Positions 18,895-36,129 of a stretch of DNA of 64,000 bases are shown in pieces. Made by a program: the position numbers and the translations under genes. The notes under the pieces were generated by a model. The model searched no databases, was not told the DNA's origin, and saw only the letters and a program-made list of their open reading frames with translations. The stretch covers positions 1 to 64,000 of the forward strand of contig NZ_SMKT01000029.1 in NCBI RefSeq assembly GCF_004348735.1. The letters run 5' to 3'. Origin of the DNA: Actinomadura sp. KC06 (GTDB lineage Bacteria; Actinomycetota; Actinomycetes; Streptosporangiales; Streptosporangiaceae). How positions within the stretch are numbered: position 1 is the stretch's first letter; every line of letters begins with the position of its first letter.

Positions 18895-18911
18895 CGGCCC
18901 GCCGATAGCGG

Positions 18912-18952: not shown

Positions 18953-18974
18953 CAGCCAGAAAGGAGGGATCGGC

Positions 18975-20836: not shown

Positions 20837-21843
20837 TGACGGAGAAGTACGACGGCGACACGCTGTTGCAGATCGAGGACCTCCACGTCGACTTCCTGAC
20901 CGACCGCGGGTGGACGAACGTCGTCGCGGGCGTGTCGTTCGACGTCGGGCCCGGCGAGATCGTGGGCCTGGTCGGCGAGTCCGGCTCGGGCAAGAGCGTC
21001 ACGAGCCTGTCGGTGCTGCGGCTGCTCCCGGACGCCTATGCGCGCACCCCGTCCGGCCGGGTGCTCTACCGGGGCCGCGACCTGATCGGCATGCCCGCGC
21101 GGGCGCTGCGCGACATCCGCGGCAACGAGATCTCGATGATCTTCCAGGAGCCGATGACGAGCCTGAACCCTGCGTTCACCATCGGCGACCAGATCGCCGA
21201 GGTCTACCGGCGCCACAAGGGCGGCTCGCGGCGCGCCGCGTTCGCCCGCGCGGCGGAGATGCTCGACCTCGTCGGGATCCCGGACGCGGGCAGCCGCGTC
21301 AAGGACTACCCGCACGAGTTCTCCGGCGGGATGCGGCAGCGGGCCATGATCGCGATGGCGCTGGCGTGCGAGCCGAAGCTGCTCATCGCGGACGAGCCGG
21401 CCACCGCCCTCGACGTGACCGTCCAGGCGCAGATCGTCGCGTTGCTCTCACGGCTCCGCGATGAGACGGGCTGCGGCATCCTCTTCATCACCCATGACCT
21501 CGGGCTTGTCGTCGAGCTGGCCGACCGGGTCGTCGTGATGTACGCGGGCGAAGTGGTGGAGACCGCGTCCGCGCTCGACCTGTACAACGCGCCGAAACAT
21601 CCGTATACGGCGGGGCTGCTGAGCGCCATGCCGCATCTGGGGGTTCGCGGGAAGGAGCTGCCGACGATCCCCGGCCGCACCCCGGAGCCCTGGCGGATGC
21701 CGGAGGGCTGCAGGTTCAGCCCCCGGTGCGGATACACGAGCGACGAGTGCGTGGCCGCCCCGCCCGCGCTCCGGATCGTCGAGGCAGGCCGCAGCGCCCG
21801 CTGCTGCCGAACCGAGCAGTTGCGTTTGGTGGGTTCCCCATGA
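20836..21843 (+). CDS. ABC transporter ATP-binding protein, DppD type
   Basis: 335 aa. Walker A GESGSGKS near residue 50, Q-loop IFQEPMTSLNP, signature FSGGMRQRAMIAMAL, Walker B LLIADEPATALD and H-loop ITHDLG are all intact. The C-terminal oligopeptide-transporter extension has CRFSPRCGYTSDEC cysteines, which in DppD proteins often bind an Fe-S cluster or form a structural site. It powers import with the next ATPase. The start overlaps the permease stop by one base (TGATG). Confidence 0.93.
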   Translation: MTEKYDGDTLLQIEDLHVDFLTDRGWTNVVAGVSFDVGPGEIVGLVGESGSGKSVTSLSVLRLLPDAYARTPSGRVLYRGRDLIGMPARALRDIRGNEISMIFQEPMTSLNPAFTIGDQIAEVYRRHKGGSRRAAFARAAEMLDLVGIPDAGSRVKDYPHEFSGGMRQRAMIAMALACEPKLLIADEPATALDVTVQAQIVALLSRLRDETGCGILFITHDLGLVVELADRVVVMYAGEVVETASALDLYNAPKHPYTAGLLSAMPHLGVRGKELPTIPGRTPEPWRMPEGCRFSPRCGYTSDECVAAPPALRIVEAGRSARCCRTEQLRLVGSP

Positions 21844-22913
21844 GCATCAAGAAGACCGGCCCCTCGGAAACGGAACCGGGGCCGGTGCCGGAGAGCGGGC
21901 CGCTCGTCGACGTGCGCGACGTCAGCGTGGTGTTCCGGAAGAGGCGGACGCTGGCGGCGGCGCGGCAGGTGCGCGCGGTCAACGACGTCACCTTCCACAT
22001 CGACCAGGGCGAGACGTTCGGGCTGGTCGGTGAGTCGGGGTCGGGCAAGTCGACGACCGGGCGGGCGCTGCTGAAGCTGGTGCCGACGGTGAGCGGATCC
22101 ATCAGGGTGGCCGGGCATGATGTCACGGCCCTGCACGGCGGCGCCTTGCGCAAGGCGCGGCGCAGCATGCAGATGGTGTTCCAGGATCCGTACTCGTCGC
22201 TGGATCCGTCGTCCACGGTGGCGGCGAGCATCGCGGAACCGCTCGTCGTCCACGAGAAGCTCTCGGCGCGGGCGGCGCGCACCCGCGTGCACGAGCTGAT
22301 CGAGATGGTCGGGCTCCGGGCGAGCTACGCCGACCGGTATCCGTACGAGTTCTCCGGCGGGCAGCGGCAGCGGCTGGCCATCGCGCGGGCGATCGCGCTG
22401 AACCCGCGGTTCGTCGTCTGCGACGAGGCCGTGTCCGCGCTGGACGTGTCCACCCAGAACCAGGTGATCAACCTGCTGGAGCGGCTGCGGGCGGAGTTCA
22501 AGCTGACGTACCTTTTCATCGCGCACGACCTGGCGATCGTCCGGCACATCTCGCACCGGGTCGGGGTCATGTACCTCGGCCGGATCGTGGAGACCGGCCC
22601 GGCGGAGCGGGTCTACAGCGCGCCGGCGCACCCGTACACCCAGGCGCTGCTGTCGGCGATCCCCGACCCGCGCCGGGAGTCGGAGCGGATCGTCCTGGAG
22701 GGGGACCTCCCCGACCCGGCCAAGCCGCCGGTGGGATGCCCCTTCCAGACGCGGTGCAGGTTCGTCATGGACGTCTGCAAGCAGCAGGTGCCCGAGCACA
22801 CCGCCGTGGAGGGCGGTGGGGAGGTCGCGTGCCATCTGCAGACGAGCGGTCCCACGCTGGCGGGCTCGCCGCTGAACGATCTCGAGCCGAACCGTGTCGC
22901 GGCGGCGCCGTGA
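21840..22913 (+). CDS. ABC transporter ATP-binding protein, DppF type
   Basis: 357 aa. Walker A GESGSGKSTT, Q-loop VFQDPYSSLDP, signature FSGGQRQRLAIARAI, Walker B FVVCDEAVSALD and H-loop IAHDLA. The C-terminal oligo_HPY extension contains CPFQTRCRFVMDVC. It is the last gene of the importer operon, with an ATGA overlap to the DppD gene and an 89-nt gap before the GntR regulator. Walker B has DEA instead of the common DEP, as in several DppF proteins. Confidence 0.93.
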   Translation: MSIKKTGPSETEPGPVPESGPLVDVRDVSVVFRKRRTLAAARQVRAVNDVTFHIDQGETFGLVGESGSGKSTTGRALLKLVPTVSGSIRVAGHDVTALHGGALRKARRSMQMVFQDPYSSLDPSSTVAASIAEPLVVHEKLSARAARTRVHELIEMVGLRASYADRYPYEFSGGQRQRLAIARAIALNPRFVVCDEAVSALDVSTQNQVINLLERLRAEFKLTYLFIAHDLAIVRHISHRVGVMYLGRIVETGPAERVYSAPAHPYTQALLSAIPDPRRESERIVLEGDLPDPAKPPVGCPFQTRCRFVMDVCKQQVPEHTAVEGGGEVACHLQTSGPTLAGSPLNDLEPNRVAAAP

Positions 22914-22941
22914 GAAAGCTTTTCCCGTGACCTGACCCACG

Positions 22942-22987
22942 TTGACCGACGAACACTGGCAGACGTAATCTGTAGTACGTCAGACAA
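22942..22987 (+). promoter_or_regulatory. Promoter and candidate autoregulatory site of the GntR gene
   Basis: TTGACC (22942-22947), 18 nt, TAATCT (22966-22971) forms a reasonable promoter. The dyad CTGTAGTACGTCAG at 22970-22983 (symmetric as CTG-N2-GTAC-N2-CAG) sits on the expected start site. Read leftward, 22987-22977 is TTGTCTGACGT, one mismatch from the FadR/FCD consensus TNGTNNNACNA. This fits autoregulation by the gene downstream. Confidence 0.5.
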
Positions 22988-23002
22988 AAGTAAAGGACTG
23001 CC

Positions 23003-23683
23003 GTGACCGACCCGAAGCTCGACCTGACGATCGACCGGCCCGCCGAATCCGTCCCGGAGATGGTCGTGCGGCGAATACGCGACGCGATCGCCGCGGGGCT
23101 GCTCCCGCCCGGCCGTCAGCTCACCGAGCGCGAACTCGTCGAGCTGACCGGTGTGAGCCGGACGTCCGTGCGGGAGGCTATGCGGCACCTGCAGACCCTG
23201 GGGCTCGTGGAGCCGTCGCCGAGCCGCGGCGTCCGCGTGGCCCGGCTCGGCAGCGACGAGGTCCGGGAGATCTACGAGGTGCGCGACGCGCTGGAGCCCG
23301 CCGCGGCGGAGCTGTTCGTCCTGCGCGCGACGGACGAGGAGGTCGCCGCGCTCGTGGAGAAGGTCCAGCCGCGCGAGACCGGCGACCAGCGGCTCCAGGC
23401 CATATACGAATTCGACGAGCTGCTCCTCGCGGGGGCCCGCAACTCGCTGCTGAAATCCATGCTGGAGCCCCTGCACACGCGGATCCACGCGCTGCGCAGC
23501 CTTTCGGTGACCATTCCCGGCCGGCACGAGGCGTCCGCGAAGGAATACCTCGAAATCGCCGAGGCGATCGCCGCCCGCTCGCCCGAGCGCGCGGCCGAGG
23601 CAGCGCATCGCCATGTCCGGGCGGCCGCGAAGGCGGCCCTTGAAGCTGTGGAAATCCTCGAGAAAAAACACCCGAAGTCATAG
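23003..23683 (+). CDS. GntR family regulator, FadR subfamily with FCD domain
   Basis: 226 aa from GTG 23003, with AAAGGA 5 nt upstream. A winged helix at about 15-78 (LPPGRQLTERELVELTGVSR) is followed by an all-helical FCD domain. The metal-ligand positions look degraded: the usual D-x3-H is FDELLLAGARN and the usual E-H is KEYLEIAEAI; only the HRHV histidines remain. So ligand binding may not use a metal ion. It separates the importer operon from the catabolic genes and likely controls both. Effector unknown. Confidence 0.88.
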   Translation: MTDPKLDLTIDRPAESVPEMVVRRIRDAIAAGLLPPGRQLTERELVELTGVSRTSVREAMRHLQTLGLVEPSPSRGVRVARLGSDEVREIYEVRDALEPAAAELFVLRATDEEVAALVEKVQPRETGDQRLQAIYEFDELLLAGARNSLLKSMLEPLHTRIHALRSLSVTIPGRHEASAKEYLEIAEAIAARSPERAAEAAHRHVRAAAKAALEAVEILEKKHPKS

Positions 23684-23737: not shown

Positions 23738-24868
23738 ATGGCCATGAAGGATGTGGCAATCGTCGGCGTCGGGTCGTCGGACTTCCGGCGGCTGTACGCG
23801 GACAAGAGCCAGCCGAACGATGTGTACCAACTCGCCGCGGAGGCGTTCAGGGACGCCCTGGACGACTGCGGCGCCACCCAGCAGGACATCGACGGACTGA
23901 TCTGCACCAATATCAAGTACGGCCAGTTCGGAGAGACGGTCGGGCTCACCGCGCCGGGATTCGTCCATGACCTTGAGGGCACCGGCCGGATGGCCGGCGT
24001 CTCCTTGCAGGAGGCGTGCGCGCTCATCCGCTCGGGCATGGCGGACATGGTCGCCTGCGTGTACGGGACGAACGGCAGGACGGCGGGCACGAAGTACGGC
24101 GGCGGGGACGCCGACCCGGCCGGTGCTTACGACGCGATGTACGGAATGACGTCCACGGGCGCCTACGTGTCGATGATGTACCAGCGGTACCAGGCCATGT
24201 ACGGAGCCCCGGAGGACGCGCTCGCGCCGCTCGCCATCAACAATCGCGCGAACGGGGCCCGCAATCCGATCGCGGTGTTCCAGAAGGAGATCGACCTCGA
24301 CGATTACCTGTCGTCGCGGTTCATCGCCGAGCCGCTGCGCTTGCTGGACTACTGCATCATCAACGACGGCGCCGTCGCGTTCATCGTGACGTCGCTCGAC
24401 CGTGCCCGCGACATGCGGAAGAAGCCCGTACGGGTCTTGGCCACGGCGGGCCGGGCCGAGCTGAGCCGCAGCTACATCAGTCCCGACTTCTACTTCGAGA
24501 CCAGCAAGGCCGTGGCCGACCAGCTCTACCGGAGCGCGGGAATCGGCCCGGACCAGATCGACTGCATGCAGGTGTACGACAACTTCCTCCCGACGATCCT
24601 CTTCACCCTGGAGGGCTTCGGCCACGCGCCTCGCGGCCATTCCTGGGAATGGATCCGGGACGGCCGGATCGAGCTCGGCGGGAAACGTCCGCTGAACACT
24701 TCGGGCGGCCACACGAGCGAGAGCTACATGCAGGGTTTCGCATTCCATGTGGAAGCGGTGCGGCAGGTGCGCGGCGAGGCCGGCGACCGGCAGGTCGAGA
24801 ACTGCAACACCGTGCAGTACATGTGCGTCTCTCCCATCGTGACTTCGCACATCTTCGTGGCCGACTAG
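23738..24868 (+). CDS. Thiolase-superfamily protein lacking the catalytic cysteine (lipid-transfer/Ltp2-like), copy 1
   Basis: 376 aa with the SCP2-thiolase fold (MAMKDVAIVGVGSSDFRRLY start; NTSGGHTSESYMQGF near the C-terminus). At the position of the thiolase nucleophile the sequence is MAGVSLQEACALIRSG, so the normal reactive cysteine in an N-C-S/G context is absent. Cys-less members paired with a DUF35 protein, as Ltp2 with ChsH2, act as retro-aldolases on beta-hydroxyacyl-CoA. The DUF35 gene follows 14 nt later. AAGGGTGA precedes the ATG. Annotation as acetyl-CoA acetyltransferase would be misleading. Aldolase activity is inferred from the family. Confidence 0.82.
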   Translation: MAMKDVAIVGVGSSDFRRLYADKSQPNDVYQLAAEAFRDALDDCGATQQDIDGLICTNIKYGQFGETVGLTAPGFVHDLEGTGRMAGVSLQEACALIRSGMADMVACVYGTNGRTAGTKYGGGDADPAGAYDAMYGMTSTGAYVSMMYQRYQAMYGAPEDALAPLAINNRANGARNPIAVFQKEIDLDDYLSSRFIAEPLRLLDYCIINDGAVAFIVTSLDRARDMRKKPVRVLATAGRAELSRSYISPDFYFETSKAVADQLYRSAGIGPDQIDCMQVYDNFLPTILFTLEGFGHAPRGHSWEWIRDGRIELGGKRPLNTSGGHTSESYMQGFAFHVEAVRQVRGEAGDRQVENCNTVQYMCVSPIVTSHIFVAD

Positions 24869-24882
24869 AAGGGGGCTAGCCG

Positions 24883-25311
24883 ATGGACGTCGCGGCCTAC
24901 GCGAAACTCTTGCCGGACATCACCCCGCGCAACAAGCCGTTCTGGGACGGCTGCGCCGCCGGCGAGCTCCGCCTCCAGAAATGCACGGAATGCGGGCGGT
25001 ACCGCTTCCCGGACGGGCCGCTCTGCCCGGAGTGCCTTTCCAGCTCGGCCTCCTGGGAGGCGGTGAGCGGCACCGGGACCATCTGGTCGTGGTGCACGAT
25101 GCACCAGAAGTACTTCGCCGCCTTCGCCGACGAGGTCCCCTACCGGCTCGTCTATGTGCGGCTGACCGAGGGCCCGCTCGTGATCAGCACGCTGGCCGAC
25201 GAACCGTCCGAGGAATTGCGCCTCGACCAGCCGGTGCACGCGGTGTTCCGGCCGAGTCCCGGCGGACGGGTCATTCCACAGTTCAACACCGGCGCAGCCG
25301 CAGGCATGTGA
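24883..25311 (+). CDS. Zn-ribbon OB-fold protein (DUF35), partner of thiolase-like copy 1
   Basis: 142 aa. An N-terminal helix (NKPFWDGCAAGELRLQKC) leads into a rubredoxin-like zinc ribbon with CTEC and CPEC pairs (about residues 34-50), then an OB-fold (GTIWSWCTMHQKYF; PYRLVYVRLTEGPLVIS). DUF35 proteins bind acyl-CoA and form complexes with thiolase-like partners. Its location directly after the Cys-less thiolase gene supports a two-protein aldolase or acyltransferase. AAGGGGG ribosome-binding site. Confidence 0.88.
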   Translation: MDVAAYAKLLPDITPRNKPFWDGCAAGELRLQKCTECGRYRFPDGPLCPECLSSSASWEAVSGTGTIWSWCTMHQKYFAAFADEVPYRLVYVRLTEGPLVISTLADEPSEELRLDQPVHAVFRPSPGGRVIPQFNTGAAAGM

Positions 25312-25323
25312 GGTTGAATTCAA

Positions 25324-26130
25324 ATGGATCCGATCGCTGACCATGATCTCGTCCGGTACGAGGACCTGTCCGACGGCGTCGCCCGCATCACCCTGAACCG
25401 GCCCGAGAAGCGGAACGCGATGAGCCGGGCCGCCAGAGCGGCACTGCTGGACGTGCTGGACCGCTGCGACGGGCACGTCCGGGTGATCGTCCTCACCGGC
25501 GCGGGCCCGGCCTTCTGCGCGGGCGTCGACCTCAAGGAGTCCGCCGAGGAGGACATCGACAGCGACCGCCGCGGCGCGGGACGCCGGACGAGCTGGCTCA
25601 CCGTCCAGGAGCGCATCCGGCAGCACTCGGCGATCGTCATCGCGGCCGTCAACGGATTCGCGCTCGGCGGCGGGCTGACCCTCATCAATTCGAGCGACCT
25701 CGCCGTCGCCGCCGACGACGCGCCGATCGGGATGCCCGAGGTCGGCTTCGGCCTGTACCCGGGGCTCGCGGGCCCGTCCACGCAACTGCGGCTCGGGGCG
25801 AAGCGCGCCGCGTGGATGGTGCTGACCGCCGACCGGATCACGGGCGCGACGGCGGCGGAATGGGGGCTGGTGAACCTCGCCGTCCCGGCCGCCGAGCTCC
25901 AGTCCGCCGCGCTCGACCTCGCCCGGCGCGTCGCCCGGCACAACGCGGTGACGCTGTCGTGGGCGAAGCGCGCCCTCCACGAGATCCCCATGTACATCTC
26001 GGACTGGACGAAGGCCCTCGAATACGGCGAGGACGTGCGGCACCAGATCGCGGCGCGCACGGACGTGCTGGACGATCCGCACGCGACGCACCGGATGGCG
26101 GTCGGCCGGACCGGCGACGGCGCGCGATGA
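25324..26130 (+). CDS. Enoyl-CoA hydratase/isomerase family protein
   Basis: 268 aa crotonase fold. The oxyanion-hole segments are AFCAGVDLKES and ALGGGLTL. The catalytic glutamate equivalent to rat E164 is present in GMPEVGFGL, but the E144 position is not glutamate (GGGLTLINSSDL). So a pure hydratase mechanism is uncertain; isomerase or hydrolase chemistry is possible. In this cluster it would supply the beta-hydroxyacyl-CoA for the thiolase-like/DUF35 complexes. It overlaps the next gene by ATGA. Confidence 0.85.
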   Translation: MDPIADHDLVRYEDLSDGVARITLNRPEKRNAMSRAARAALLDVLDRCDGHVRVIVLTGAGPAFCAGVDLKESAEEDIDSDRRGAGRRTSWLTVQERIRQHSAIVIAAVNGFALGGGLTLINSSDLAVAADDAPIGMPEVGFGLYPGLAGPSTQLRLGAKRAAWMVLTADRITGATAAEWGLVNLAVPAAELQSAALDLARRVARHNAVTLSWAKRALHEIPMYISDWTKALEYGEDVRHQIAARTDVLDDPHATHRMAVGRTGDGAR

Positions 26131-28463
26131 ACCGTCCAGACGGCGCCGGGGGAGGCACCGCGACCGGCAGGGTTCTCCGGGTGGTCGAGCTCGCCGACGG
26201 CGTGGCCGGCCAGGTCTGCGGGCGGCTGCTCGCCGGCCTCGGCCACACCGTGACCAAGTGCGAACCGCCCGGCGGCGATCCGCTGCGCACGCGCGAGCCG
26301 GTCGACGCCAATGGCCTGAGCTACACGTTCGCCGCGCTGAACGCCGACAAGCGGAGCGTCCGGCTCGACCCGGGCGCCCCGGAAGGCCGCGCCCGCATGG
26401 CGGAGCTGCTCGCGGCGGCCGACGTCCTGATCATCGATGCCGGTCCGCGCAGGGCGGCGGAGCTCGATCTGTCACCGGCCCGCCTGCGCGCCGCGCACCC
26501 GCGGCTGGTCGTCGTCACGATCACGCCCTACGGCGCGACCGACCCGCGCTCCGACGCCTACGGCGACAGCCTGCTCGCCGAGTGCTACGGCGGCCTGGCC
26601 GCGATGGTCGGCGAGCCGGACCGGCGGCCGCTGAGCCTCGGCGGCGAGCAGACGGCGCACGCCGCCGCGTTCGTGGCCTTCTACGGGGCGATGCTCGCGC
26701 TGCGGCGTCCGGACGGCGACGTCGTGGACGTCGCGCTCTGCGACGTGGCCGCGTACATCGACTGGAAGAGCGACATCGTCTACACCGAGACCGGCCAGAT
26801 CCCCGTCCGGACGGGCACGAGCATCGGGCGCTGGCGGACGGTCGAGGCCGCCGACGGCTGGGTCGGGTTCATCTTCCAGCCGGAGCAGTGGGACAGCGTC
26901 GTCACGCTCGTCGGCGATCCGGCGCTCGAAGACCCCAGGCTGCGCGGCGACAAGGCGCGCTTCGAGCTCGTCGACCTCTGGTGGCCGGCCGTCGAGCGGT
27001 GGGCCGCGCAGCGCAGCAAGCGGGAGATCTACCACGCCGCGCAGCGCCTCGGCCTGCCGTTCGGCTATTGCGCCGACCTGGCCGACCTCGCCGCCGACCC
27101 CCAGTACCAGGCGAGGTCGTTCTGCTCGGACGGCGGCGGAAGCCTGGCGCCCGTCGTCGGCCTGCCGTGGCGCTTCGGCCCCCCGCCGGGCCTGGCCGAC
27201 GACGCCGGAACCGGCGCCGCACGTCCCGTCCCGCGCACGATGGACGGTACGTCGAACGGCCGCGAGAAGGCCCCGCTCGCCGGGCTCGTCGTCCTGGACC
27301 TCGGCACCATCACGGCGGGCGCCGCCACCGGCCGGCTGCTCGCCGACTACGGCGCCACCGTCATCAAGATCGAGGCGATGGAGCGGCCGGACGCGTTCCG
27401 CGTGTGGCCGGTGCCCGGCGCGGGCGACGCCGAGGTCATGGAGGAGTCGCCGCTCTTCGAGTCGAACAACGCCGGCAAGCTCGGCATCACGCTCGATCTG
27501 AAGACCGAGGCCGGGCGGGCGGAGATCCGGCGGCTCGCCGCGCGGTCCGACGCGCTGATCGAGAACTTCACCGTCGGCGTCACGCGCCGCCTCGGCATCG
27601 ACTTCCCGACGCTGATCGAGGTCAACCCGCGGCTGATCTACCTGTCGCTGTCCAGCCAGGGGCAGTCGGGCCCCGAGTCGGGCACCCGGTCCTACGGCTC
27701 CAGCCTCGACCTGCTGTCCGGCCTCGCGTCGGTCACGGGCTACGCGGGGGAGCGCCCGATGTGGTCGTCGGCCGACATCAACTATCCCGACCAGATCGTC
27801 TCCCTGTTCGGCGCCGGGCTGATCGCCTACTGCGCGGCCCAGGACCTGCGCGGGACCTACCTCGACGTGTCGCAGCGGGAGCTGGTGAGCTGGACGCTCG
27901 CCGACCGCATCATCGAGCATCTCGACACCGGGACCGTTCCGGGGCCGTCCGGCAACCGGCGTCCCGGCAGCACGCCGCACGACGTGTACCGGTGCGACGG
28001 CGACGACCAGTGGATCGCCGTCGCCTGCCGGACGGACACCGAACGCGCCGCACTCGCGGCCCTCATCGGCGCAGACCACATGGTGGGCGAACCGGCCTCC
28101 CGGTGGGAGGAGAACCACCGGGAGGTCGACGCCGCGATCAGTGCCTGGACCCGGCGGCGCTCGAAGGAAGAGTGCGTCCGCGAGCTGACCCGGGCCGGCG
28201 TACCGTCCGCGCCGGTCCAGTCCGCCCGCGAACGCGCCGAGGATCCGCATTTTCGGCGCCGCCGGGTCTTCCTCAACGAACCACGCCGCCAGAAGGGGTT
28301 CCCGCTGCGGCTGTTCGGCTACGAGCCGCCGCAGCCCAGCCCGGCCCCGCGCCTCGGCCAGCACGACGCCGAAATACGCAATGGCCGTGTGCCGGGCACC
28401 GCAGACGTGCCCGCCCCACGAGCCGCCGAATTCCCGTCCCCGCGTCCGGGAGGATCCACATGA
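26127..28463 (+). CDS. Tandem (fused) CaiB/BaiF family III CoA-transferase
   Basis: 778 aa made of two family III CoA-transferase domains. Domain 1 (about 15-355) keeps the catalytic aspartate at D206 (VVDVALCDVAAYI). Domain 2 (about 384-745) has DLGTITAGAATGRLLADYGA at its start, but glutamate E585 where the Asp is expected (YLDVSQRELVSW). Family III enzymes form interlocked dimers; a fused tandem could be a self-contained pseudo-dimer with one catalytic site. It would activate or swap CoA on the pathway acid. It overlaps both neighbours by 4 nt. Confidence 0.87.
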   Translation: MNRPDGAGGGTATGRVLRVVELADGVAGQVCGRLLAGLGHTVTKCEPPGGDPLRTREPVDANGLSYTFAALNADKRSVRLDPGAPEGRARMAELLAAADVLIIDAGPRRAAELDLSPARLRAAHPRLVVVTITPYGATDPRSDAYGDSLLAECYGGLAAMVGEPDRRPLSLGGEQTAHAAAFVAFYGAMLALRRPDGDVVDVALCDVAAYIDWKSDIVYTETGQIPVRTGTSIGRWRTVEAADGWVGFIFQPEQWDSVVTLVGDPALEDPRLRGDKARFELVDLWWPAVERWAAQRSKREIYHAAQRLGLPFGYCADLADLAADPQYQARSFCSDGGGSLAPVVGLPWRFGPPPGLADDAGTGAARPVPRTMDGTSNGREKAPLAGLVVLDLGTITAGAATGRLLADYGATVIKIEAMERPDAFRVWPVPGAGDAEVMEESPLFESNNAGKLGITLDLKTEAGRAEIRRLAARSDALIENFTVGVTRRLGIDFPTLIEVNPRLIYLSLSSQGQSGPESGTRSYGSSLDLLSGLASVTGYAGERPMWSSADINYPDQIVSLFGAGLIAYCAAQDLRGTYLDVSQRELVSWTLADRIIEHLDTGTVPGPSGNRRPGSTPHDVYRCDGDDQWIAVACRTDTERAALAALIGADHMVGEPASRWEENHREVDAAISAWTRRRSKEECVRELTRAGVPSAPVQSARERAEDPHFRRRRVFLNEPRRQKGFPLRLFGYEPPQPSPAPRLGQHDAEIRNGRVPGTADVPAPRAAEFPSPRPGGST

Positions 28464-29632
28464 ATGCCAACGATGCCGCCGTCATCATCGGAGCCTACGA
28501 ACATCCGGGCCGCGAGCTGCCGGACAAGTCGCTGGCGCAGATCCACGCCGAGGTGGCGATCGGGGCGCTCGCCGACGCCGGGCTGACGCTGGACGACGTC
28601 GACGGCTACTTCTGCGGGCACGACGCGCCGGGCTACGGCGGCGGCTGGGTCACGATGGCCGAGTACCTCGGCCTGCGCGACCTCACCTACATGGACTCGA
28701 CGGAGAGCGGCGGCGCCTCGCCGATCTACCACGTGTCGCACGCGGCGGCGGCGATCGCGGCCGGCAAGTGCAGCGTCGCGCTGATCACGCTCGCGGGCAA
28801 GCCGCGGACGGGCATCCAGCCGGGCGGCGGCGGTCCGGCCTCCCCGCAGGACGACTTCGAGATGGCGATGTTCACCGGCGCCGGGCTGGTCAGCACCTAC
28901 GCGCTGGCGGCCCGCCGGCACATGTACGAGTTCGGCACGACGAGCGAGCAGCTCGCCGAGATCAAGGTCGCGGCGACGAAGCACGCGTCCCACAACCCGA
29001 ACGCCTTCCTGCAGAAGGTGATGACGGTCGAGGACGTCGTCAACTCGCCGATGGTCGCCGACCCGCTGCACCGCGCCGACTGCTGCGTGGTGACGGACGG
29101 CGGCGGCGCCGTGGTCGTGGTCAGCCGCGAGGTCGCGCGCAGCCTGGACCGGCAGCCGGTGAGGATCATGGGCCAGGGCGAGTCGGCGAAGCTGACCAAC
29201 GGCGGCAAGCTCGACCTGACGTACACGAGCGCGGTGTGGTCCGGGCCGCGGGCGTTCGAGCAAGCCGGGGTCACGCCACAGGACGTCGACTACGTGTCGA
29301 TCTACGACAGCTTCACGATCACCGTCCTGGAGATCCTGGAGGACCTCGGCTTCTGCGCGAAGGGCGAGGGCGGCCGCTTCGTCATGGACGGGACGCTCGT
29401 CGCCCCACACGGGAAGCTCCCGTTCAACACCGACGGCGGCGGGCTGAGCAACAACCATCCGGGGCACCGCGGCGGGATCACCAAGACCATCGAGGCGGTG
29501 CGGCAGCTCCGCGGCGAGGCGAACCAGGGCGTGCAGATCCCCGACTGCGAGATCGCCCTGGTGCACGGCAACGGCGGCGACCTGGGCACCCGGATGCGCA
29601 GCGCCACGATGATCTTGGGAAGGGACGCATGA
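28460..29632 (+). CDS. Thiolase-superfamily protein lacking the catalytic cysteine (lipid-transfer/Ltp2-like), copy 2
   Basis: 390 aa, SCP2-thiolase fold, distinct from copy 1. At the nucleophile position it reads MDSTESGGASPIYH: serine/threonine/glutamate replace the catalytic cysteine. The C-terminal histidine region is LSNNHPGHRGG and the last Cys loop is LVHGNGGDLGT. It is directly followed (ATGA) by a second DUF35 gene, so the cluster holds two independent Ltp/DUF35 pairs. A retro-aldol or related C-C cleavage step is inferred. The conserved NHPGH may retain CoA-thioester chemistry. Confidence 0.82.
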   Translation: MNANDAAVIIGAYEHPGRELPDKSLAQIHAEVAIGALADAGLTLDDVDGYFCGHDAPGYGGGWVTMAEYLGLRDLTYMDSTESGGASPIYHVSHAAAAIAAGKCSVALITLAGKPRTGIQPGGGGPASPQDDFEMAMFTGAGLVSTYALAARRHMYEFGTTSEQLAEIKVAATKHASHNPNAFLQKVMTVEDVVNSPMVADPLHRADCCVVTDGGGAVVVVSREVARSLDRQPVRIMGQGESAKLTNGGKLDLTYTSAVWSGPRAFEQAGVTPQDVDYVSIYDSFTITVLEILEDLGFCAKGEGGRFVMDGTLVAPHGKLPFNTDGGGLSNNHPGHRGGITKTIEAVRQLRGEANQGVQIPDCEIALVHGNGGDLGTRMRSATMILGRDA

Positions 29633-30075
29633 GCGAGGTACGGAGCCCGGTGCTGCCCGCGCCGGCGCCGGTGGTCAACCCGGACACCGCGGAGTTCTGG
29701 AAGGCGACCACCGAGGGGACGTTCCTCGGCCGCCGCTGCGACGGCTGCGGGTCGGCGATCTGGTACCCGCGGCCGATCTGCCCGTTCTGCCACAGCACGA
29801 ACACGCGGTGGGAGGAGTTCAGCGGGCGGGGCGCCGTCTACTCCTACAGCGTCGTCCACCGGGCAGGCGGCGAGTGGAAGGGCGTCACGCCGTACGTCCT
29901 CGCCTACGTGGAGCTGGAGGAAGGGCCCCGCGTGATGACCAACATCGTCGACTGCGACGTCGAGAAGGTCGCCATCGGAGACGCGGTGGAAGTGGTGTTC
30001 GAGGACACCGGGAACGGCAGCGCGCTGCCGCGCTTCCGTCCGGTGCAGAGCGCAAACGAAAAGGGACAGTCATGA
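29629..30075 (+). CDS. Zn-ribbon OB-fold protein (DUF35), partner of thiolase-like copy 2
   Basis: 148 aa. Proline-rich N-terminus, then the helix TAEFWKATTEGTFLGRRC, a zinc ribbon with CDGC and CPFC pairs and an OB-fold (GAVYSYSVVHRAGGEWKG; YVLAYVELEEGPRVMTNI). Paralogous to, but clearly diverged from, the protein at 24883-25311. Tight 4-nt overlaps on both sides place it in one translation unit with the thiolase-like protein and the CoA-transferase. Confidence 0.88.
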   Translation: MSEVRSPVLPAPAPVVNPDTAEFWKATTEGTFLGRRCDGCGSAIWYPRPICPFCHSTNTRWEEFSGRGAVYSYSVVHRAGGEWKGVTPYVLAYVELEEGPRVMTNIVDCDVEKVAIGDAVEVVFEDTGNGSALPRFRPVQSANEKGQS

Positions 30076-31463
30076 CCATCAACAAGGTGTACGAGTCTCC
30101 GCTGGCGGCCGTCGCCGACGTCCCGGACGGCGCGTCGGTGTCGATCGCCGGGTTCGGCAAGACCCACAGTTTCCCGACGAGCCTGACCGTCGCCCTCCGG
30201 GAGCAGGGCGCCCGGCAGCTGTGCCTGGTGGCCAACTCGCTCGGCGAAGGACCCTACCGTTCGATCACTCTCGTTGAGAACCGCCAGGTCAACCGGTTGA
30301 TCGTGTCGTTCTCGGCGCGGGCGGGGGAGGCGACGTCGGCGGCCGAGAAGCAGATCGCCGCGGGCGAGATCGAGGTTGAGCTGGTGCCGCAGGGCACGCT
30401 GGTGGAGCGGCTGCGCGCGGGCGGCGCCGGGATCGGCGCGTTCTTCACCCGCACCGCCGTCGGCACCGCCGTGGCGGACGGCAAGGAGACCCGCGTGATC
30501 AACGGGGTCGAGCACGTCCTGGAGATGGGGCTGAAGGTCGACTACGCGCTGATCCGCGCCGCCCGCGCCGACCGTTTCGGGAACCTGGAGTTCGACGGCG
30601 TCGGACGCAATTTCATGCCCGCCTTCGCCAAGGGCGCCGAGATCACGATCGCCGAGGTGGACGAGATCGTCGACGGCGAACTGCACCCGGAGCGGATCGG
30701 TCTGCCGGGCATTTTCGTGAGCCGGGTCGTCCGCAAGACGGTCGACGTCGAGCACGACTTCCCGGTGGTGCGGGAGGGGCGCGGCGGCGACAGTGCCCGC
30801 ACGGTCAACGGCAAGAAGGCGCTGACCCGCAAGCAGATGGCGGAGGTCGCGGCCGGGCTCGTGCCCAACGGCAGCTACATGAACCTTGGTCTCGGAATCC
30901 CGACGCTCATCTCGGACTACATTTCCGGGCGCGACATCGTCCTGCATTCGGAGAACGGCGTGCTCGGCTACGGGACGATCGCGTCGCGCGATGACTACGA
31001 CCCCGAGATCTACAACGCGGGCGGCCAGTACGTGCATCTGGAGAAGGGCGCGTCGTTCTTCGAGAGCGTGACGTCCTTCGAGATGGTGCGCGGCGGCAAG
31101 GTCGACTTCGTCGCGCTCGGGGCGTTCCAGGTGGACGCCGACGCCAACCTCGCCAACTGGAGCACCCCGAACATGGTGGGCGGCGGCATCGGCGGCGCGA
31201 TGGACCTGGTCGCGGGCGACGTCAACGTGATGGTGCTGATGATGCACTCCGACTCCAAGGGGAACCCGAAGCTCGTCAACTCGTGCGAATACCCGCTGAC
31301 CGGGCTCAACTGCGTCAACATCGTCGTCACCGATCTGTGCGTGCTGCGCCGCGTCGGCGACGCGTTCAAGCTCGAATACGTGGCGCCGGGATTCACCGCG
31401 GACGAGGTCGCCGCGCTGACCGAGTTCGACATCGACGTCTCGGACTTCGAGTCGGCGGCGTAG
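30072..31463 (+). CDS. Family I CoA-transferase with fused alpha and beta subunits (SCOT-like)
   Basis: 463 aa. The alpha half (about 1-230) starts MTINKVYESPLAAVADVPDG and has GIGAFFTRTAVGT. The beta half (about 250-460) carries MNLGLGIPTLISDYI and the SENG motif with the catalytic glutamate E294 (LHSENGVLGYG). Family I enzymes move CoA between succinyl-CoA or acetyl-CoA and 3-oxoacids via a glutamyl-CoA thioester. The glycine loop is IAGFGKTHSFPTSL rather than the usual GGFGLCG form, hinting at an unusual acyl substrate. Bacterial versions are normally two genes; here they are one. Confidence 0.85.
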   Translation: MTINKVYESPLAAVADVPDGASVSIAGFGKTHSFPTSLTVALREQGARQLCLVANSLGEGPYRSITLVENRQVNRLIVSFSARAGEATSAAEKQIAAGEIEVELVPQGTLVERLRAGGAGIGAFFTRTAVGTAVADGKETRVINGVEHVLEMGLKVDYALIRAARADRFGNLEFDGVGRNFMPAFAKGAEITIAEVDEIVDGELHPERIGLPGIFVSRVVRKTVDVEHDFPVVREGRGGDSARTVNGKKALTRKQMAEVAAGLVPNGSYMNLGLGIPTLISDYISGRDIVLHSENGVLGYGTIASRDDYDPEIYNAGGQYVHLEKGASFFESVTSFEMVRGGKVDFVALGAFQVDADANLANWSTPNMVGGGIGGAMDLVAGDVNVMVLMMHSDSKGNPKLVNSCEYPLTGLNCVNIVVTDLCVLRRVGDAFKLEYVAPGFTADEVAALTEFDIDVSDFESAA

Positions 31464-31471
31464 AGGCCGCC

Positions 31472-32869
31472 GTGTCGGATCTCGCTGGAATGACCGCTCT
31501 GGCCGGCATGACCGCCGCGGAGCTGGCCGGTGCGTACGCGCGGCGCGAGACGTCGCCGGTGGAGGCGACCCGCGCCGCGCTGGCCGCGATCGAGGAGCGG
31601 GACGCCGAGCTGAACGCGTTCGTCCTGGTCGACGCCGACGCCGCGCTGAAGGCGGCGGCCGAGTCGGAGGCGCGCTGGTCGGCCGGCACGCAGCGCGGCC
31701 GCGCCGACGGCGTCCCCACGTCCGTCAAGGACCTCGAACGGACCCGCGGGTGGCCGACGCTGCGCGGCACCTGGCTGGCGGACGACGCGGGCCCGTGGCC
31801 GGAGGACTCGCCGAGCGTGGCCAGGCTCCGCGAGGCGGGCGCCGTCCTCATCGGCAAGACGACGACGCCGGAGTTCGGGTGGAAGGGCGTCACCGACTCG
31901 CCCCGGTTCGGGATCACCAGGAACCCGCTGGACCCCGCGCTGACGCCCGGCGGTTCCAGCGGCGGCTCGGCGGCGGCGGTCGCGGCGGGGATGGGCACGT
32001 GGTCGGTCGGCACGGACGGCGGCGGGTCAGTCCGGGTGCCGGCGTCCTTCACCGGGACGGTCGGCTTCAAGCCGACCGGCGACCTGATCGCGTCGTACCC
32101 GCCGGGCAGCAACGGCCTGCTGTCGCATCGCGGGCCGATCACCCTGTCGGTGCTGGACGCCGCCATCATGCTCGACGTGATCGGCCGTCCCGACCACCGC
32201 GACTGGGCGGCGCTGCCCGCCAAGGACGGCTCGTTCACGGACGGCATCGAAGCGGGCATCGAGGGCCTGACCATCGGCTACTCGCCCGATCTCGGCTACG
32301 GCCGCAACGACCCGGAAGTCGCGTCTCTCGTGGCCGACGCGGTCGGCGTCCTGGCCGGTCTGGGCGCGCACGTGTCGGAGATCGAGCCGCTGTTCGACGA
32401 TCCCGTCGATGCGTTCCAGACGCTGTGGTGCGCCGGAGTCGCGCGGACGCTCAACCCCTACGGCCCGGACGACCTCGCCCGCGTCGACCCGGCGCTGCTG
32501 GAGTACGCGGAGCGGGGCCGCGGCATCACCGCCGTGGAGTACCTGGACGCGATGGCCGTCTGCGCCGATCTCGGCCTCCGGATGGCGCGGTTCCACGAGT
32601 CGTACGACGTGCTGGTCACGCCGACCGTCCCGGGCGTCGCGTTCCCGGCGGGCCAGAACGGACCCACCCCGGAGCAGTCACAGGTCTGGGCGTCGTGGAC
32701 GCCCTACACCTACCCGTTCAACATGACCAGGCAACCGGCGCTGAGCGTGCCGTGCGGCCGCACGCGTTCCGGACTGCCGGTCGGACTCCAGCTGGTGGGC
32801 CCCCGCCACCAGGACGCCCGCGTGCTCAGGGCGGGACGCGCCTACGAGACGAGAGGACAGCAGTCATGA
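31472..32869 (+). CDS. Amidase (amidase signature family)
   Basis: 465 aa from GTG 31472, preceded by GAGG. The Ser-cisSer-Lys triad is visible: K86 in VPTSVKDLERT, S162/S163 in GGSSGGSAAAV and S186 in GTDGGGSVRVPAS. It hydrolyses a carboxamide to acid plus amine or ammonia in the cytoplasm; no signal peptide is seen. Family members act on many amides (aryl, indoleacetamide, pantothenate, lactam oligomers), so the substrate is open. It is the first of four downstream enzymes linked by short gaps or overlaps, suggesting entry of an amide substrate into the cluster. Confidence 0.9.
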   Translation: MSDLAGMTALAGMTAAELAGAYARRETSPVEATRAALAAIEERDAELNAFVLVDADAALKAAAESEARWSAGTQRGRADGVPTSVKDLERTRGWPTLRGTWLADDAGPWPEDSPSVARLREAGAVLIGKTTTPEFGWKGVTDSPRFGITRNPLDPALTPGGSSGGSAAAVAAGMGTWSVGTDGGGSVRVPASFTGTVGFKPTGDLIASYPPGSNGLLSHRGPITLSVLDAAIMLDVIGRPDHRDWAALPAKDGSFTDGIEAGIEGLTIGYSPDLGYGRNDPEVASLVADAVGVLAGLGAHVSEIEPLFDDPVDAFQTLWCAGVARTLNPYGPDDLARVDPALLEYAERGRGITAVEYLDAMAVCADLGLRMARFHESYDVLVTPTVPGVAFPAGQNGPTPEQSQVWASWTPYTYPFNMTRQPALSVPCGRTRSGLPVGLQLVGPRHQDARVLRAGRAYETRGQQS

Positions 32870-34305
32870 CGGAGCTACCCACGGTCGAGAACCTGATCAA
32901 CGGGGAGTGGCTGCGCAGCGACCATGAACGCACGGTGCACCACAAGTTCACCGGCGCGCCGCTCGCGACCTCGTACGACGCGACGCCCGGCATGGTGGCC
33001 GACGCCGTGACCGTCGCGCGGGAGGCGAGCCGCACCCCGCTGAACCCGCTGCAGCGCTTCGAGATCCTGCGGGCGGTCGCCGACCAGATAGCGGCGAATC
33101 GGGAGCAGCTCGCGCTGGACGTGGCGCGCGAGTCCGGGTTCAGCATCAAGGACTGCCTGGGCGACACCGACCGGGCGGTGCAGACGATGCTGACGTCCGC
33201 CGAGGAGGCGAAGCGGATCGACGGCGAGGTCGTCCCGATCCAGGCCGCGCCCGGGTTCGCGCACCGGCTCGCCTTCACGATCCGCACGCCGGTCGGCGTG
33301 GTAGGCGCGATCACGCCGTTCAACTCGCCGCTGAACACCGTCGCCCACAAGATCGGGCCGGCGCTGGCCGCCGGGAACGCGGCGATCGTCAAGCCGTCGC
33401 CGTTCACGCCGATCGCCGCGGCGGCGCTGTGCCGGATGCTGCTGGACGCGGGCCTGCCGCCCGGCCTGATCGGGCTGGTGCTCGGCCCCGGCGACCCGGT
33501 CGGGCAGGCCCTGGTGGACGACGAGCGCGTCGACTTCATCACCTTCACCGGCAGCACCGCCGCCGGGAAGGCCATCTCCGCGCGGCTCGGCATGCGCCGG
33601 GCGACGATGGAGTGCGGCAACGTGTCCGCGACCATCGTGTGCCGGGACGCCGACGTCCTGTCCGCCGCGCAGCAGTGCGCCCGCGGCGCGTTCCGCAAGT
33701 CGGGCCAGGTGTGCACGTCGGTGCAGCGGCTCTACGTGCACACGTCCGTCCTGGACGAATTCCTCGGCGAACTGTCCGCCGCTGCGTCGAAGCTCGTCCT
33801 CGGGGACCCGGAGGACCAGGCGACCGACATCGGCCCGATGATCAGCGAGGCCGCGGCGAAGCGCGCCGAGGAATGGGTGAACGCCGCCGTCGACCAGGGC
33901 GCCCGGATCGTGACCGGCGGCGGGCGGACGGGCCCGGTGATGAACCCGACGATCCTGGTGGACGTCGCGCCGGAGTCGCGGCTGCTCTGCGAGGAGGCGT
34001 TCGCGCCCGTCGTGTCGGTCGTCCCGTTCGACGACCTCGACACCGTGATCGACAAGGTGAACGACACCCCGTACGGGCTGCAGGCGGGCATCTTCACCCG
34101 GGACCTCGACACCGCGCTCACCGCCGCCAAGACCCTCCGGATGGGCGGCGTGGTGATCAACTCGACGTCGAGCACGCGCGCCGACCTGATGCCGTATGGC
34201 GGCGTCAAGGACAGCGGCTACGGGGTCGAAGGCCCCCGCTACGCCATCCGGGACATGACGGAGGAACGGCTGATCCTGATGGAGCCCGCCGGCGGGGCGA
34301 AGTAG
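32866..34305 (+). CDS. Aldehyde dehydrogenase (NAD(P)+-dependent)
   Basis: 479 aa. Catalytic cysteine C283 (SGQVCTSVQRLY), general base E249 (ATMECGNVSATIV, in place of the usual LELGG), and the cofactor segment VKPSPFTPIAAAAL followed by FTGSTAAGKAI. The ECGN form suggests a member close to the glyceraldehyde-3-phosphate/lactaldehyde-type branch. In this cluster it could oxidise the aldehyde released by a retro-aldol step. The ATG overlaps the amidase stop (ATGA). Confidence 0.92.
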   Translation: MTELPTVENLINGEWLRSDHERTVHHKFTGAPLATSYDATPGMVADAVTVAREASRTPLNPLQRFEILRAVADQIAANREQLALDVARESGFSIKDCLGDTDRAVQTMLTSAEEAKRIDGEVVPIQAAPGFAHRLAFTIRTPVGVVGAITPFNSPLNTVAHKIGPALAAGNAAIVKPSPFTPIAAAALCRMLLDAGLPPGLIGLVLGPGDPVGQALVDDERVDFITFTGSTAAGKAISARLGMRRATMECGNVSATIVCRDADVLSAAQQCARGAFRKSGQVCTSVQRLYVHTSVLDEFLGELSAAASKLVLGDPEDQATDIGPMISEAAAKRAEEWVNAAVDQGARIVTGGGRTGPVMNPTILVDVAPESRLLCEEAFAPVVSVVPFDDLDTVIDKVNDTPYGLQAGIFTRDLDTALTAAKTLRMGGVVINSTSSTRADLMPYGGVKDSGYGVEGPRYAIRDMTEERLILMEPAGGAK

Positions 34306-34315
34306 GGCCGGAGCG

Positions 34316-35365
34316 ATGTCTTCCGTCCGGATTTCCCCCGGCGAGCTGCGGGACGCCGCCACGCGGATCTTCACCGCGTGCGGCGTGCCGCCGGACGACG
34401 CGCTGCTCGTCGCGGACAGCCTCGTCCAGGCCGACCTGTGGGGACACCAGTCGCACGGCGTGCTGCGCGTCGGCTGGTACGTCGACCGCATCCGGTCGGG
34501 CGTCATGTCCGGCGAGACCAAGGCCGAGCTGGTCGCCGACCATGGCGCCGTCGCGACCCTCGACGGCCACGACGGCATCGGCCAGGTCATCACGGCCCGC
34601 GCCGCCGAAGAGGCCATCGGCCGTGCCGAGCGGCACGGCATCGGCGCCGTCTCAGTGCGGAATTCAAACCATTTCGGGACCGCCGCCTACTTCACCAGGA
34701 TGGCGCCGCCGCGCGGTTGCATCGGCATCCTGACGACGAATTCGAGCCCGGCGATGGCACCTTGGTCCGGACGCGGGAAACTCGTCGGCAGCAACCCGTG
34801 GTCGATAGCGGCCCCGGTGGACCGCGACAACCAGATGGTGCTCGATATCGCCAACACGGCTGTCGCCCGAGGAAAGATCTACCTGGCCCGGAACAGAGGC
34901 GAGGAGATCCCGGACGGATGGGCCGTAAGCGCGGAAGGCGCGCCGACCCGGAACCCCGAGCAGGCCCTTCTCGGCACTGTCCTGCCGATGGCGGCCCACA
35001 AGGGATACGGCATCTCGGTGATGATGGACGTCCTGTCCGGGGTGCTCAGCGGAAGCGGTTTCGGCTCGGGTGTCAGCGGGCCCTACCAATCCGAGCTGCC
35101 GGGCAAGTCAGGCCACCTGTATCTGGCCCTTAACATTGCCTCGTTCAGCCCGGTGCAGGAATTCGAGGAGCGCATGCAGGCCCTGGTCGCGGAACTGAAA
35201 TCCGGTTCGCGGGAGGGGACGGAAGAGGTGCGCTACCCCGGCGAACTCGAAAGCCTCGCCGAAACGCGGAACGCGCGAGAAGGGCTGGCGCTGCCCGCAC
35301 GGACCATCGCCGACCTGCGCCAGGTCGCCCATGACCTGGGCGTGGACGTGCTGGAGGAACGATGA
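34316..35365 (+). CDS. Ldh family oxidoreductase (type 2 malate/L-lactate dehydrogenase, YlbC/ComC fold)
   Basis: 349 aa. Family marks: ADLWGHQSHGVLRVGWYV (catalytic His), VRNSNHFGTAAYFT, and GRGKLVGSNPWSIAAPV for NAD binding. Members oxidise 2-hydroxy acids such as malate, lactate, ureidoglycolate or 2,3-diketogulonate-type substrates. Here a hydroxy acid made by lactone opening or hydration could be its substrate. It lies 10 nt after the ALDH gene and overlaps the MBL gene by ATGA. Confidence 0.88.
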   Translation: MSSVRISPGELRDAATRIFTACGVPPDDALLVADSLVQADLWGHQSHGVLRVGWYVDRIRSGVMSGETKAELVADHGAVATLDGHDGIGQVITARAAEEAIGRAERHGIGAVSVRNSNHFGTAAYFTRMAPPRGCIGILTTNSSPAMAPWSGRGKLVGSNPWSIAAPVDRDNQMVLDIANTAVARGKIYLARNRGEEIPDGWAVSAEGAPTRNPEQALLGTVLPMAAHKGYGISVMMDVLSGVLSGSGFGSGVSGPYQSELPGKSGHLYLALNIASFSPVQEFEERMQALVAELKSGSREGTEEVRYPGELESLAETRNAREGLALPARTIADLRQVAHDLGVDVLEER

Positions 35366-36129
35366 GCGTCACCGTCACCCCGATCCGCGTCGGACGGTCG
35401 GAGAACGTCCCGTTCGCCGCCGCCGTCTATGGTTCCGCTCGCGACACGACCATCGACATCCACATGTTCATGTTCGTGATCGAGGCCGGTGGGACGCGCG
35501 TCGTCGTCGACACCGGGACGCTGGATCCCGAATACGTGCGGCGGCATCACCCGTACGCCTTCGTGCGCACCCCCGAGGAATTGCCGGAGACGGCGCTGCG
35601 TGAATGCGGGTTCGACCCCGATGACATCGACTATGTCGTCAACACGCATCTGCATTGGGATCACTGCTCGAACAACAACCTGTTCCAGAACGCCCAGATC
35701 CTGGTGCACCGGCGGGAACTCGAATACGCGATGAACCCGTTGCCGCTGCACGAGCGCGCGTACGAGAAACTGCCGGGGCTCCAGGCGCCGTGGATGTCGG
35801 CCTGGGACCGCATCGAGGCGATATCGCGGGAGCAGCAGATCTGCCCGGGCGTCACCGTCGTCCCGTTGCCGGGGCACACGCCCGGCTCCCAAGGCGTGCT
35901 CGTCGAAGCGGAGACCGGACGCTACCTGCTGGCAGGCGACGCCATGGGCGTCTATGAGAACTGGAACCCGGAAGACTGGCGAAAGAGCGTCCCGCCGACC
36001 ATTCACACCAATCTCTTCGAGTGCTACGAGACCTTCGAGTTCGTCAGCGGCCTCGACTGCGAAGTGGTCCCGAGCCACGACCACCGCCTCCTGGAAAGCA
36101 CCCTGTTCCGCCATTCCGTAACGACCTGA
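35362..36129 (+). CDS. Metallo-beta-lactamase fold hydrolase, N-acyl-homoserine-lactonase-like
   Basis: 255 aa. Metal site: NTHLHWDHCSNN (H96, H98, D100, H101), PLPGHTPGSQGVL (third His) and LLAGDAMG (bridging Asp), with PSHD near the C-terminus. The general organisation matches AHL-lactonase (AttM/AiiA-like) enzymes, which open lactone rings. As the last gene of the cluster, it may open a lactone intermediate or quench quorum signals. The C-terminus stops abruptly at a point where a gene remnant follows, so some truncation by rearrangement is possible. Confidence 0.85.
   Translation: MSVTVTPIRVGRSENVPFAAAVYGSARDTTIDIHMFMFVIEAGGTRVVVDTGTLDPEYVRRHHPYAFVRTPEELPETALRECGFDPDDIDYVVNTHLHWDHCSNNNLFQNAQILVHRRELEYAMNPLPLHERAYEKLPGLQAPWMSAWDRIEAISREQQICPGVTVVPLPGHTPGSQGVLVEAETGRYLLAGDAMGVYENWNPEDWRKSVPPTIHTNLFECYETFEFVSGLDCEVVPSHDHRLLESTLFRHSVTT

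Follow-up and report, generated by a model that had tools for sequence, protein, structure and literature searches.

A gene cluster of Actinomadura sp. KC06 with two thiolase-like/DUF35 pairs as a candidate ligase-free route for the aldolytic shortening of carboxylic acids

How might a bacterium shorten a carboxylic acid by way of coenzyme A (CoA) thioesters with a set of enzymes that includes no acyl-CoA dehydrogenase, no AMP-forming ligase and no Cys-bearing thiolase? A gene cluster of Actinomadura sp. KC06 raises this question. It lies on contig NZ_SMKT01000029.1 of RefSeq assembly GCF_004348735.1, within positions 1 to 64,000 of the forward strand; this 64,000-nucleotide stretch is referred to here as the window, and coordinates are those of the window. 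The enzyme block at 23738-36129 comprises 11 plus-strand genes, among them two for thiolase-like proteins, Ltp1 and Ltp2 (the latter called the window Ltp2, to separate it from the steroid Ltp2 enzymes), each followed by a gene for a DUF35 protein. With modest confidence, and from comparisons of sequences and predicted structures, we favor a scheme in which an acid would be loaded with CoA without a ligase and then cleaved aldolytically by Ltp1 and its partner DUF35-a, fed by a CoA-transferase and a crotonase.

A preliminary description of the locus had listed eleven enzyme genes in one direction, mostly with 4-nucleotide overlaps. The gene models fit this block exactly, with 4-nucleotide overlaps at six of its ten junctions and gaps of 14, 12, 8 to 44 (the amidase start being uncertain) and 10 nucleotides at the others. 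The families named for all eleven proteins were confirmed by Pfam, and ten of them, all except the metallo-beta-lactamase-fold (MBL) protein, were also run against NCBIfam. The three absences with which we began, also claimed earlier, hold among the eleven proteins by Pfam, NCBIfam and alignment, and Pfam and NCBIfam found among them neither a 3-hydroxyacyl-CoA dehydrogenase nor a MaoC-DUF35 fusion. The natural unit starts further upstream than the block, with the importer at 17311 and the GntR regulator gene at 23003. It numbers 17 genes in one direction: a five-gene Opp-type importer and an FCD-type GntR regulator (together 17311-23683), then the 11 enzymes.

The central candidate is Ltp1 (23738-24868, plus strand), which we examined in an alignment of the Ltp1 and Ltp2 families with five solved structures, including BbsB, an archaeal thiolase and TcLtp2. 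BbsB and the archaeal thiolase have a nucleophile Cys and an HDAF motif; Ltp1 and the window Ltp2 have neither, and both carry YDxF instead. An ordinary thiolase role is disfavored for both, since the nucleophile Cys is missing in each, and the earlier claim that both thiolase-like proteins are Cys-less and that a DUF35 gene comes after each is borne out by the alignment and by Pfam. According to PMC12329534, TcLtp2 uses Tyr294 of its YDHF motif as base and Tyr344 as acid, and CtSal has Tyr302 and Cys304 as catalytic residues, its product having been assayed via an aldehyde dehydrogenase. Every Ltp1-family row of two alignments (17 in one, 18 in the other) has YDNF and, where TcLtp2 has Tyr344, a Tyr (Tyr330 in Ltp1); a Cys near the C-terminus (C363) is invariant in the 17 rows of the first. 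The family forms a single clade in the tree (100/100), apart from TcLtp2, inside a 23-row group (89/90) that also holds TcLtp2 and other proteins; the long branches of BbsB and the archaeal thiolase meet in this tree, and their join may be false. An AlphaFold2 model of Ltp1 (mean predicted local distance difference test score, pLDDT, 81; low at 115-138, 195-207 and 323-328) retrieved the Ltp2-ChsH2(DUF35) aldolase first in a fold search (TM 0.86), the other listed rows, of thiolase fold, scoring 0.74-0.85. The partner, DUF35-a (24883-25311, plus strand), combines a zinc ribbon of Cys4 pattern with an OB fold (PF12172/PF01796).

Ltp1 resembles Ltp2-ChsH2 (PDB 6OK1) and Sal-Shy (PDB 9MYR) in its thiolase fold, its DUF35 partner, the lack of the Cys and a YDx(F/Y) base; it shares the second catalytic Tyr with steroid Ltp2, and the window cluster likewise has hydratase and aldehyde dehydrogenase genes. 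It differs from Ltp2 and Sal in having YDNF rather than YDHF or YDCY and in forming a separate clade. DUF35-a is a stand-alone protein, whereas the DUF35 domain of known steroid aldolases is fused to a MaoC hydratase domain; compared with the steroid Ltp2 systems, the cluster has a crotonase in place of MaoC and would obtain its CoA by transferase. The preliminary description had proposed retro-aldol cleavage for both pairs. This suits Ltp1, which is Cys-less and has both Ltp2 tyrosines, better than the window Ltp2, where a His takes the place of the second Tyr.

CoA loading is attributed to CaiB2 (26127-28463, plus strand), a fused family III CoA-transferase of 778 amino acids in which PF02515 matches two stretches. 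Its second half finds 9fn0_B, a chain of the succinyl-CoA:(R)-benzylsuccinate CoA-transferase BbsEF, as best PDB match (169 bits), followed by 4ed9 (161 bits); the first half scores 69.0 bits against 9fn0_A and 69.5 bits against Rv3272 (5yiy_A). A fold search with the CaiB2 model (mean pLDDT 78) placed the BbsEF chains at the top, narrowly ahead of other family III enzymes. BbsEF (PDB 9FN0, 9FOL) is thus the best fold match and also consists of two unequal family III parts; CaiB2 is a single chain as against two parts, and the Foldseek rows show 25-33% identity. The Asp of N-Y/F-P-D-Q in the second half (Asp555), which we take to be the catalytic position by comparison with formyl-CoA transferase, is present in 29 of 29 rows from 27 distinct loci. 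At the same place in the first half, 26 readable rows have E, D or N followed by Q, and the Asp is conserved in the second half only. At an E cut-off of 1e-60, CaiB2 had no match on plasmids. Fused two-domain CaiB transferases form a wider family beyond the cluster, with further proteins (G384, G385, G386, G389, G391 and G392) 32-34% identical over almost the full length. The earlier proposal of CoA activation by transfer agrees with the transferases present, and the ligase absent, in the cluster.

The crotonase or enoyl-CoA hydratase-like protein (25324-26130, plus strand) is plausible as the hydratase, judging from NCBIfam, PDB search and alignment. Both the family and the PDB searches gave p-hydroxycinnamoyl-CoA hydratase/lyases as best matches; this is the closest family, yet the protein is not a member by score (174.3 bits against a cut-off of 276). 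A single catalytic Glu, as seen here, is a feature of that family. The residues at the two Glu positions are presumed to have the roles they play in hydratases. The hydration step proposed earlier has in this protein its candidate, with just one of the two usual catalytic glutamates.

How far the set is conserved was assessed by an Ltp1 scan, with one genome per species, which gave 29 named loci (numbered with L) with Ltp1 identities from 96% to 41%; gene counts over these loci are limited by contig ends and by 10-kb flanks. A DUF35-a gene follows Ltp1 in 28 of the 29, the remaining locus (L061) being cut off. In 24 loci Ltp1 is followed by a CaiB2 match, a fused gene in 21 of them and two genes in three (L053, L055 and L060, all metagenome contigs; NCBI places L055 in Thermomicrobiota); a crotonase gene follows in 21 loci. 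A GntR homologue of at least 40% identity occurs in 21 loci, including those of Cupriavidus, Sphingomonas and Rhizobium (44-53%), and a solute-binding protein in 16. The trio of window Ltp2, DUF35-b and SCOT-type transferase was found in 15 loci, all from actinomycetes; the contig of L044 ends before it. The MBL gene is present in the four loci extended that far (L072, L073, L091 and L096), the P. acaciae extension L092 ending before it. Pseudonocardia eucalypti (L047 with extension L096) has all 17 genes at 61-81% identity, with the importer relocated between the amidase and ALDH (aldehyde dehydrogenase) genes. That the set is still complete after this rearrangement argues more strongly than any other observation for importer, core and tail as one unit. 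The same species has a second core copy (L050) without tail and importer. According to the preliminary description, the proposal would fall if the gene set were not kept together in relatives; it is conserved in other genera. Since the 9.4-Mb genome contains just 12 matches to PF01796 (DUF35), of which the 11-gene block accounts for two, and the set is conserved in this way, the grouping is not a matter of chance.

Four Actinomadura clusters (L037, L038, L046 and L056) have no crotonase gene, and each of these genomes has a 70-72% identical copy elsewhere, which by coordinates adjoins a second-type Ltp1 in L037 and L056. Because the copy exists elsewhere in the genome, the crotonase step seems to be needed and to be common to two clusters. 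In Novosphingobium (L054) no crotonase was found at E 1e-60. The second type of core, seen in L066, L067, L068 and L069 (Actinomadura), is 64-65% identical and comes with a GntR gene of its own and a divergent importer of the Opp type; L067 showed no crotonase. The second-type cluster L068 has its own Ltp2/DUF35-b/SCOT trio and an amidohydrolase-2 gene inside the set, and yielded no match for amidase, Ldh or MBL.

The four-gene core (Ltp1, DUF35, crotonase and family III CoA-transferase) also occurs in Cupriavidus (two loci), Sphingomonas and Rhizobium, where it is accompanied by genes for a P450, a short-chain dehydrogenase/reductase (SDR), a ferredoxin and an ALDH. Between Cupriavidus numazuensis and Sphingomonas/Rhizobium the identities are 54/48% for the P450, 55/52% for the SDR, 52/51% for the ferredoxin and 71/57% for the ALDH, and a ferredoxin reductase match was found in Cupriavidus and Rhizobium. 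The Cupriavidus P450 is closest to CYP125 proteins, and a CYP125-like P450 beside the core suggests that a hydrophobic substrate is oxidized to an acid before the core acts. The proteobacterial loci L054, L057 and L060, like L050, L053 and L055, yielded none of these P450 relatives. In L055 an MBL gene follows the core; the presence of varied hydrolases beside the same core (amidohydrolase-2 in L068, MBL in L055) hints at a masked acid. Near the core in three distant genera we also observed a family III CoA-transferase that carries a long extension at its N-terminus (L050 16439-17911, L051 16394-17956 and L052 14656-16149).

The module is a rare, patchy accessory set. Seven of 35 same-genus genomes have an Ltp1 of at least 64% identity, five of them the window type (at least 84%) and the other two only the second type (65%). 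At E <=1e-100, Ltp1 was found in one of 345 genomes of the class, one of 249 of the Cupriavidus family and one of 246 of the Sphingomonas order, each being the seed genome, and in two of 62 genomes of the P. eucalypti genus, both already among the known loci. This patchy spread across genomes is consistent with horizontal transfer.

The importer consists of an SBP_bac_5 solute-binding lipoprotein (17311-18894; PF00496), two Opp/Dpp-type permeases (18975-19919, PF00528/PF19300; 19916-20836, PF00528/PF12911) and two oligo_HPY ABC ATPases (20833-21843 and 21840-22913, both PF00005/PF08352), all on the plus strand like the remaining genes of the unit. The reading frame of the binding protein opens at 17086; Met 17311, followed by a lipobox-like ASAC, is the likelier start. 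Its best PDB match is 5u4o, followed by YliB, AapF and dipeptide-binding proteins. The importer adjoining the cluster fits the substrate import that had been proposed, and the limits given earlier, 23738-36129, hold for the enzyme block and fall short of the unit, which takes in the importer and the GntR gene. The GntR/FCD regulator (23003-23683; PF00392/PF07729) is preceded by GACGTA-N8-TACGTC at 22962-22981, which we read as its predicted operator. Of 16 actinomycete loci scanned, 13 have the shorter form ACGTA-N8-TACGT immediately before the GntR gene, among them Pseudonocardia, where the spacer differs; none of the three proteobacterial loci scanned has it there. Across 96 loci it was found in 22, a single time in each, several of these sharing the same sites through overlap. 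The full 20-nucleotide form has a single perfect match in the window; allowing up to two mismatches gives two matches, with 1.84 expected by chance. Another palindrome, ATACGTAT, upstream of the binding protein gene occurs in only some relatives and is not claimed as an operator. The cluster probably works as an inducible operon for uptake and catabolism, controlled by its own GntR protein.

The tail begins with an amidase-signature hydrolase (31508-32869, with a possible start at 31472 or 31490), which reaches 670 bits for PRK06169 (cut-off 506). It continues with the ALDH (32866-34305; PF00171), for which none of 25 NCBIfam models among the matches listed reaches its cut-off, an Ldh_2-family dehydrogenase (34316-35365; PF02615), for which none of five does, and the MBL hydrolase (35362-36129; PF00753), whose best PDB matches are acyl-homoserine lactone (AHL) lactonases at 70 bits. 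The nearest structures of the binding protein and of the MBL protein (peptide and nickel binders, and AHL lactonases, respectively) are too broad to point to a substrate. Elsewhere in the window are a sodium/bile-acid symporter family (SBF) gene beside a DUF305 gene (42425-43735, 6 kb downstream); a minus-strand pair for an S-adenosyl methyltransferase (Methyltransf_19) and a helix-turn-helix/DUF5753 protein (15146-16887); minus-strand E1_dh and transketolase-domain genes that resemble the two E1 subunits of a 2-oxoacid dehydrogenase (8521-10634); and another SBP_bac_5 binding protein with a permease, the beginning of a further importer (51126-53776).

Several observations weigh against aldolytic cleavage fed by CaiB2 and the crotonase. 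In Ltp1 the YDHF of TcLtp2 is replaced by YDNF, so that the oxyanion His becomes Asn; by plain sequence Ltp1 scores 163 bits against 4u4e, nearly the 170 bits of TcLtp2; and the branching order inside the 23-row group is poorly fixed. All four zinc cysteines of DUF35-a are lost in L048, L049, L051 and L052 (Cupriavidus, Sphingomonas and Rhizobium), where the partner Ltp1 is conserved; the DUF35-a of L060 retains one. The second hydratase Glu of the crotonase is Thr (25) or Ala (1) in all 26 rows, from 24 distinct loci. Five of the 29 loci (L054, L057, L058, L059 and L061) have no CaiB2 gene after Ltp1; in L048-L055 and L057-L061, with flanks of at most 10 kb, Ldh and MBL matches above 60 bits are absent and the ALDH matches are just 33-37% identical. 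A plasmid search for Ltp1 relatives returned 41 records, all with matches below 60% identity, and the three annotated plasmid loci with such more distant relatives all have an acyl-CoA dehydrogenase gene nearby. Two of these, from Rhodococcus, combine thiolase and OB-fold genes with the dehydrogenase, with no crotonase annotated alongside; the third, from Chelativorans, has thiolase, OB-fold, crotonase and acyl-CoA dehydrogenase genes, with four CoA-transferase genes on the opposite strand. None of these three records names a substrate (a fourth record bears no annotation).

In the second pair, the window Ltp2 (28460-29632; YDSF and His333) scores 604.5 bits for the widespread PRK08142 subfamily, above its cut-off of 462 (NCBIfam), and in the tree groups with PRK08142 relatives (100/100) next to 4u4e (87/87). 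It is followed on the same strand by DUF35-b (29629-30075; PF12172/PF01796) and a fused SCOT-type (3-oxoacid) family I CoA-transferase (30072-31463), whose best PDB matches are SCOT structures; its A half scores 218.3 against a cut-off of 128.5 (TIGR02429) and its B half 225.9 against 243.55 (TIGR02428), just below. This arrangement was seen in none of five PRK08142 relatives examined, although in one of these family I transferase genes lie some 3 kb off on the opposite strand, and another has an acetyl-CoA hydrolase/transferase gene. The SCOT-type enzyme points to a 3-oxoacid, which the earlier scheme leaves unused, and it may instead make a 3-oxoacyl-CoA that the Ltp proteins split in thiolase fashion without the usual cysteine. 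For such a thiolytic variant of beta-oxidation speak the position of the SCOT gene directly after the Ltp2/DUF35-b genes, also in the second-type cluster L068, the thiolase His that the window Ltp2 keeps in the alignment, and the neighbors of five plasmid-borne PRK08142 relatives (a hydratase gene in five, SDR in four, acyl-CoA dehydrogenases in three). Both Ltp proteins, however, have YDxF rather than HDAF and are without the nucleophile Cys of BbsB and the archaeal thiolase, and we consider the variant rather unlikely, if the most serious of the alternatives. A second alternative, the aerobic breakdown of a substituted dicarboxylate along a benzylsuccinate-type route, draws on the CaiB2 comparison, in which the second half matches one BbsEF chain best, the first half resembles the other and the fold search agrees, and on the likeness of the hydratase and the DUF35/thiolase-like pair to BbsH, a hydratase, and BbsAB, a DUF35-type/thiolase pair. 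The BbsAB benzoylsuccinyl-CoA thiolase (PDB 7PXP) is indeed built like the window pairs, but its BbsB subunit has the Cys and HDAF that both Ltp proteins lack; acyl-CoA and 3-hydroxyacyl-CoA dehydrogenases are absent among the eleven proteins, and other family III enzymes score near BbsEF (4ed9 in the second half, a tie with Rv3272 in the first). We regard this route as improbable.

Less probable still is that the operon degrades the side chain of steroids or bile acids and that Ltp1 is a regular Ltp2 enzyme, even though the best PDB match of Ltp1, by sequence and by fold, is an Ltp2 structure and the Cupriavidus P450 near the core is closest to CYP125 proteins. This reading is disfavored because the same genome carries a separate, true-looking Ltp2: its protein C367 has the exact Ltp2 motifs and groups with TcLtp2 at 100/100, whereas Ltp1 belongs to a distinct clade and the eleven proteins include neither a MaoC-DUF35 fusion nor an acyl-CoA dehydrogenase. 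We give very little credence to the idea that the enzymes act on several acids unrelated to one another, with nothing in common but regulation and import. The core does occur without the tail in L048-L053, L055 and L060, and in L068 an amidohydrolase-2 gene was found but no amidase, Ldh or MBL match; against this, the core transferase and the Ltp2/DUF35-b/SCOT trio stand together in 15 of 29 loci, and P. eucalypti retains the full set despite its rearrangement.

In the ligase-free, aldolytic scheme that we favor, the importer would take up a solute, and the amidase, the lactonase-like MBL protein and the Ldh-type dehydrogenase may carry out trimming steps. The BbsEF-like CaiB2 would then transfer CoA, from a presumed donor, to a carboxylic acid that is probably unsaturated and possibly alpha-branched, and the crotonase would hydrate the unsaturated acyl-CoA to a beta-hydroxyacyl-CoA. 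Ltp1 with DUF35-a, to judge from active-site residues, clade and fold, would make a retro-aldol cut that yields a short acyl-CoA and an aldehyde or ketone, the ALDH would oxidize a released aldehyde, and the SCOT-type transferase with Ltp2/DUF35-b could act as a second load-and-cleave pair on the remaining acid. A more specific version, which we put forward very tentatively and think more likely wrong than right, is that the module would shorten alpha-methyl isoprenoid-type unsaturated acids by CoA transfer, hydration of the double bond and aldolytic release of propionyl-CoA, with neither acyl-CoA dehydrogenase nor thiolase. The acid would be produced in some Proteobacteria when a CYP125-like P450 acts on a terminal methyl group; actinomycetes would import the ready acid, masked as an amide or lactone; the two Ltp/DUF35 machines would work in series; and the module would be widespread but rare.

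In the open-licence PMC literature searched, no system of this make-up appears in the titles or abstract starts among the matches listed. The kinds of enzyme are already known; what is new is their combination, the transferase fusion and the non-steroid Ltp clade. The four-gene core is small enough to be rebuilt in vitro, and the substrate could be traced through a compound that frees the GntR protein from the predicted operator. If the scheme is true, Ltp/DUF35 retro-aldolases would not be confined to steroids and would form part of a more general, ligase-free shortening of acids, and a testable reaction would be at hand for many genes currently annotated as 'lipid-transfer protein' or 'thiolase family protein'.

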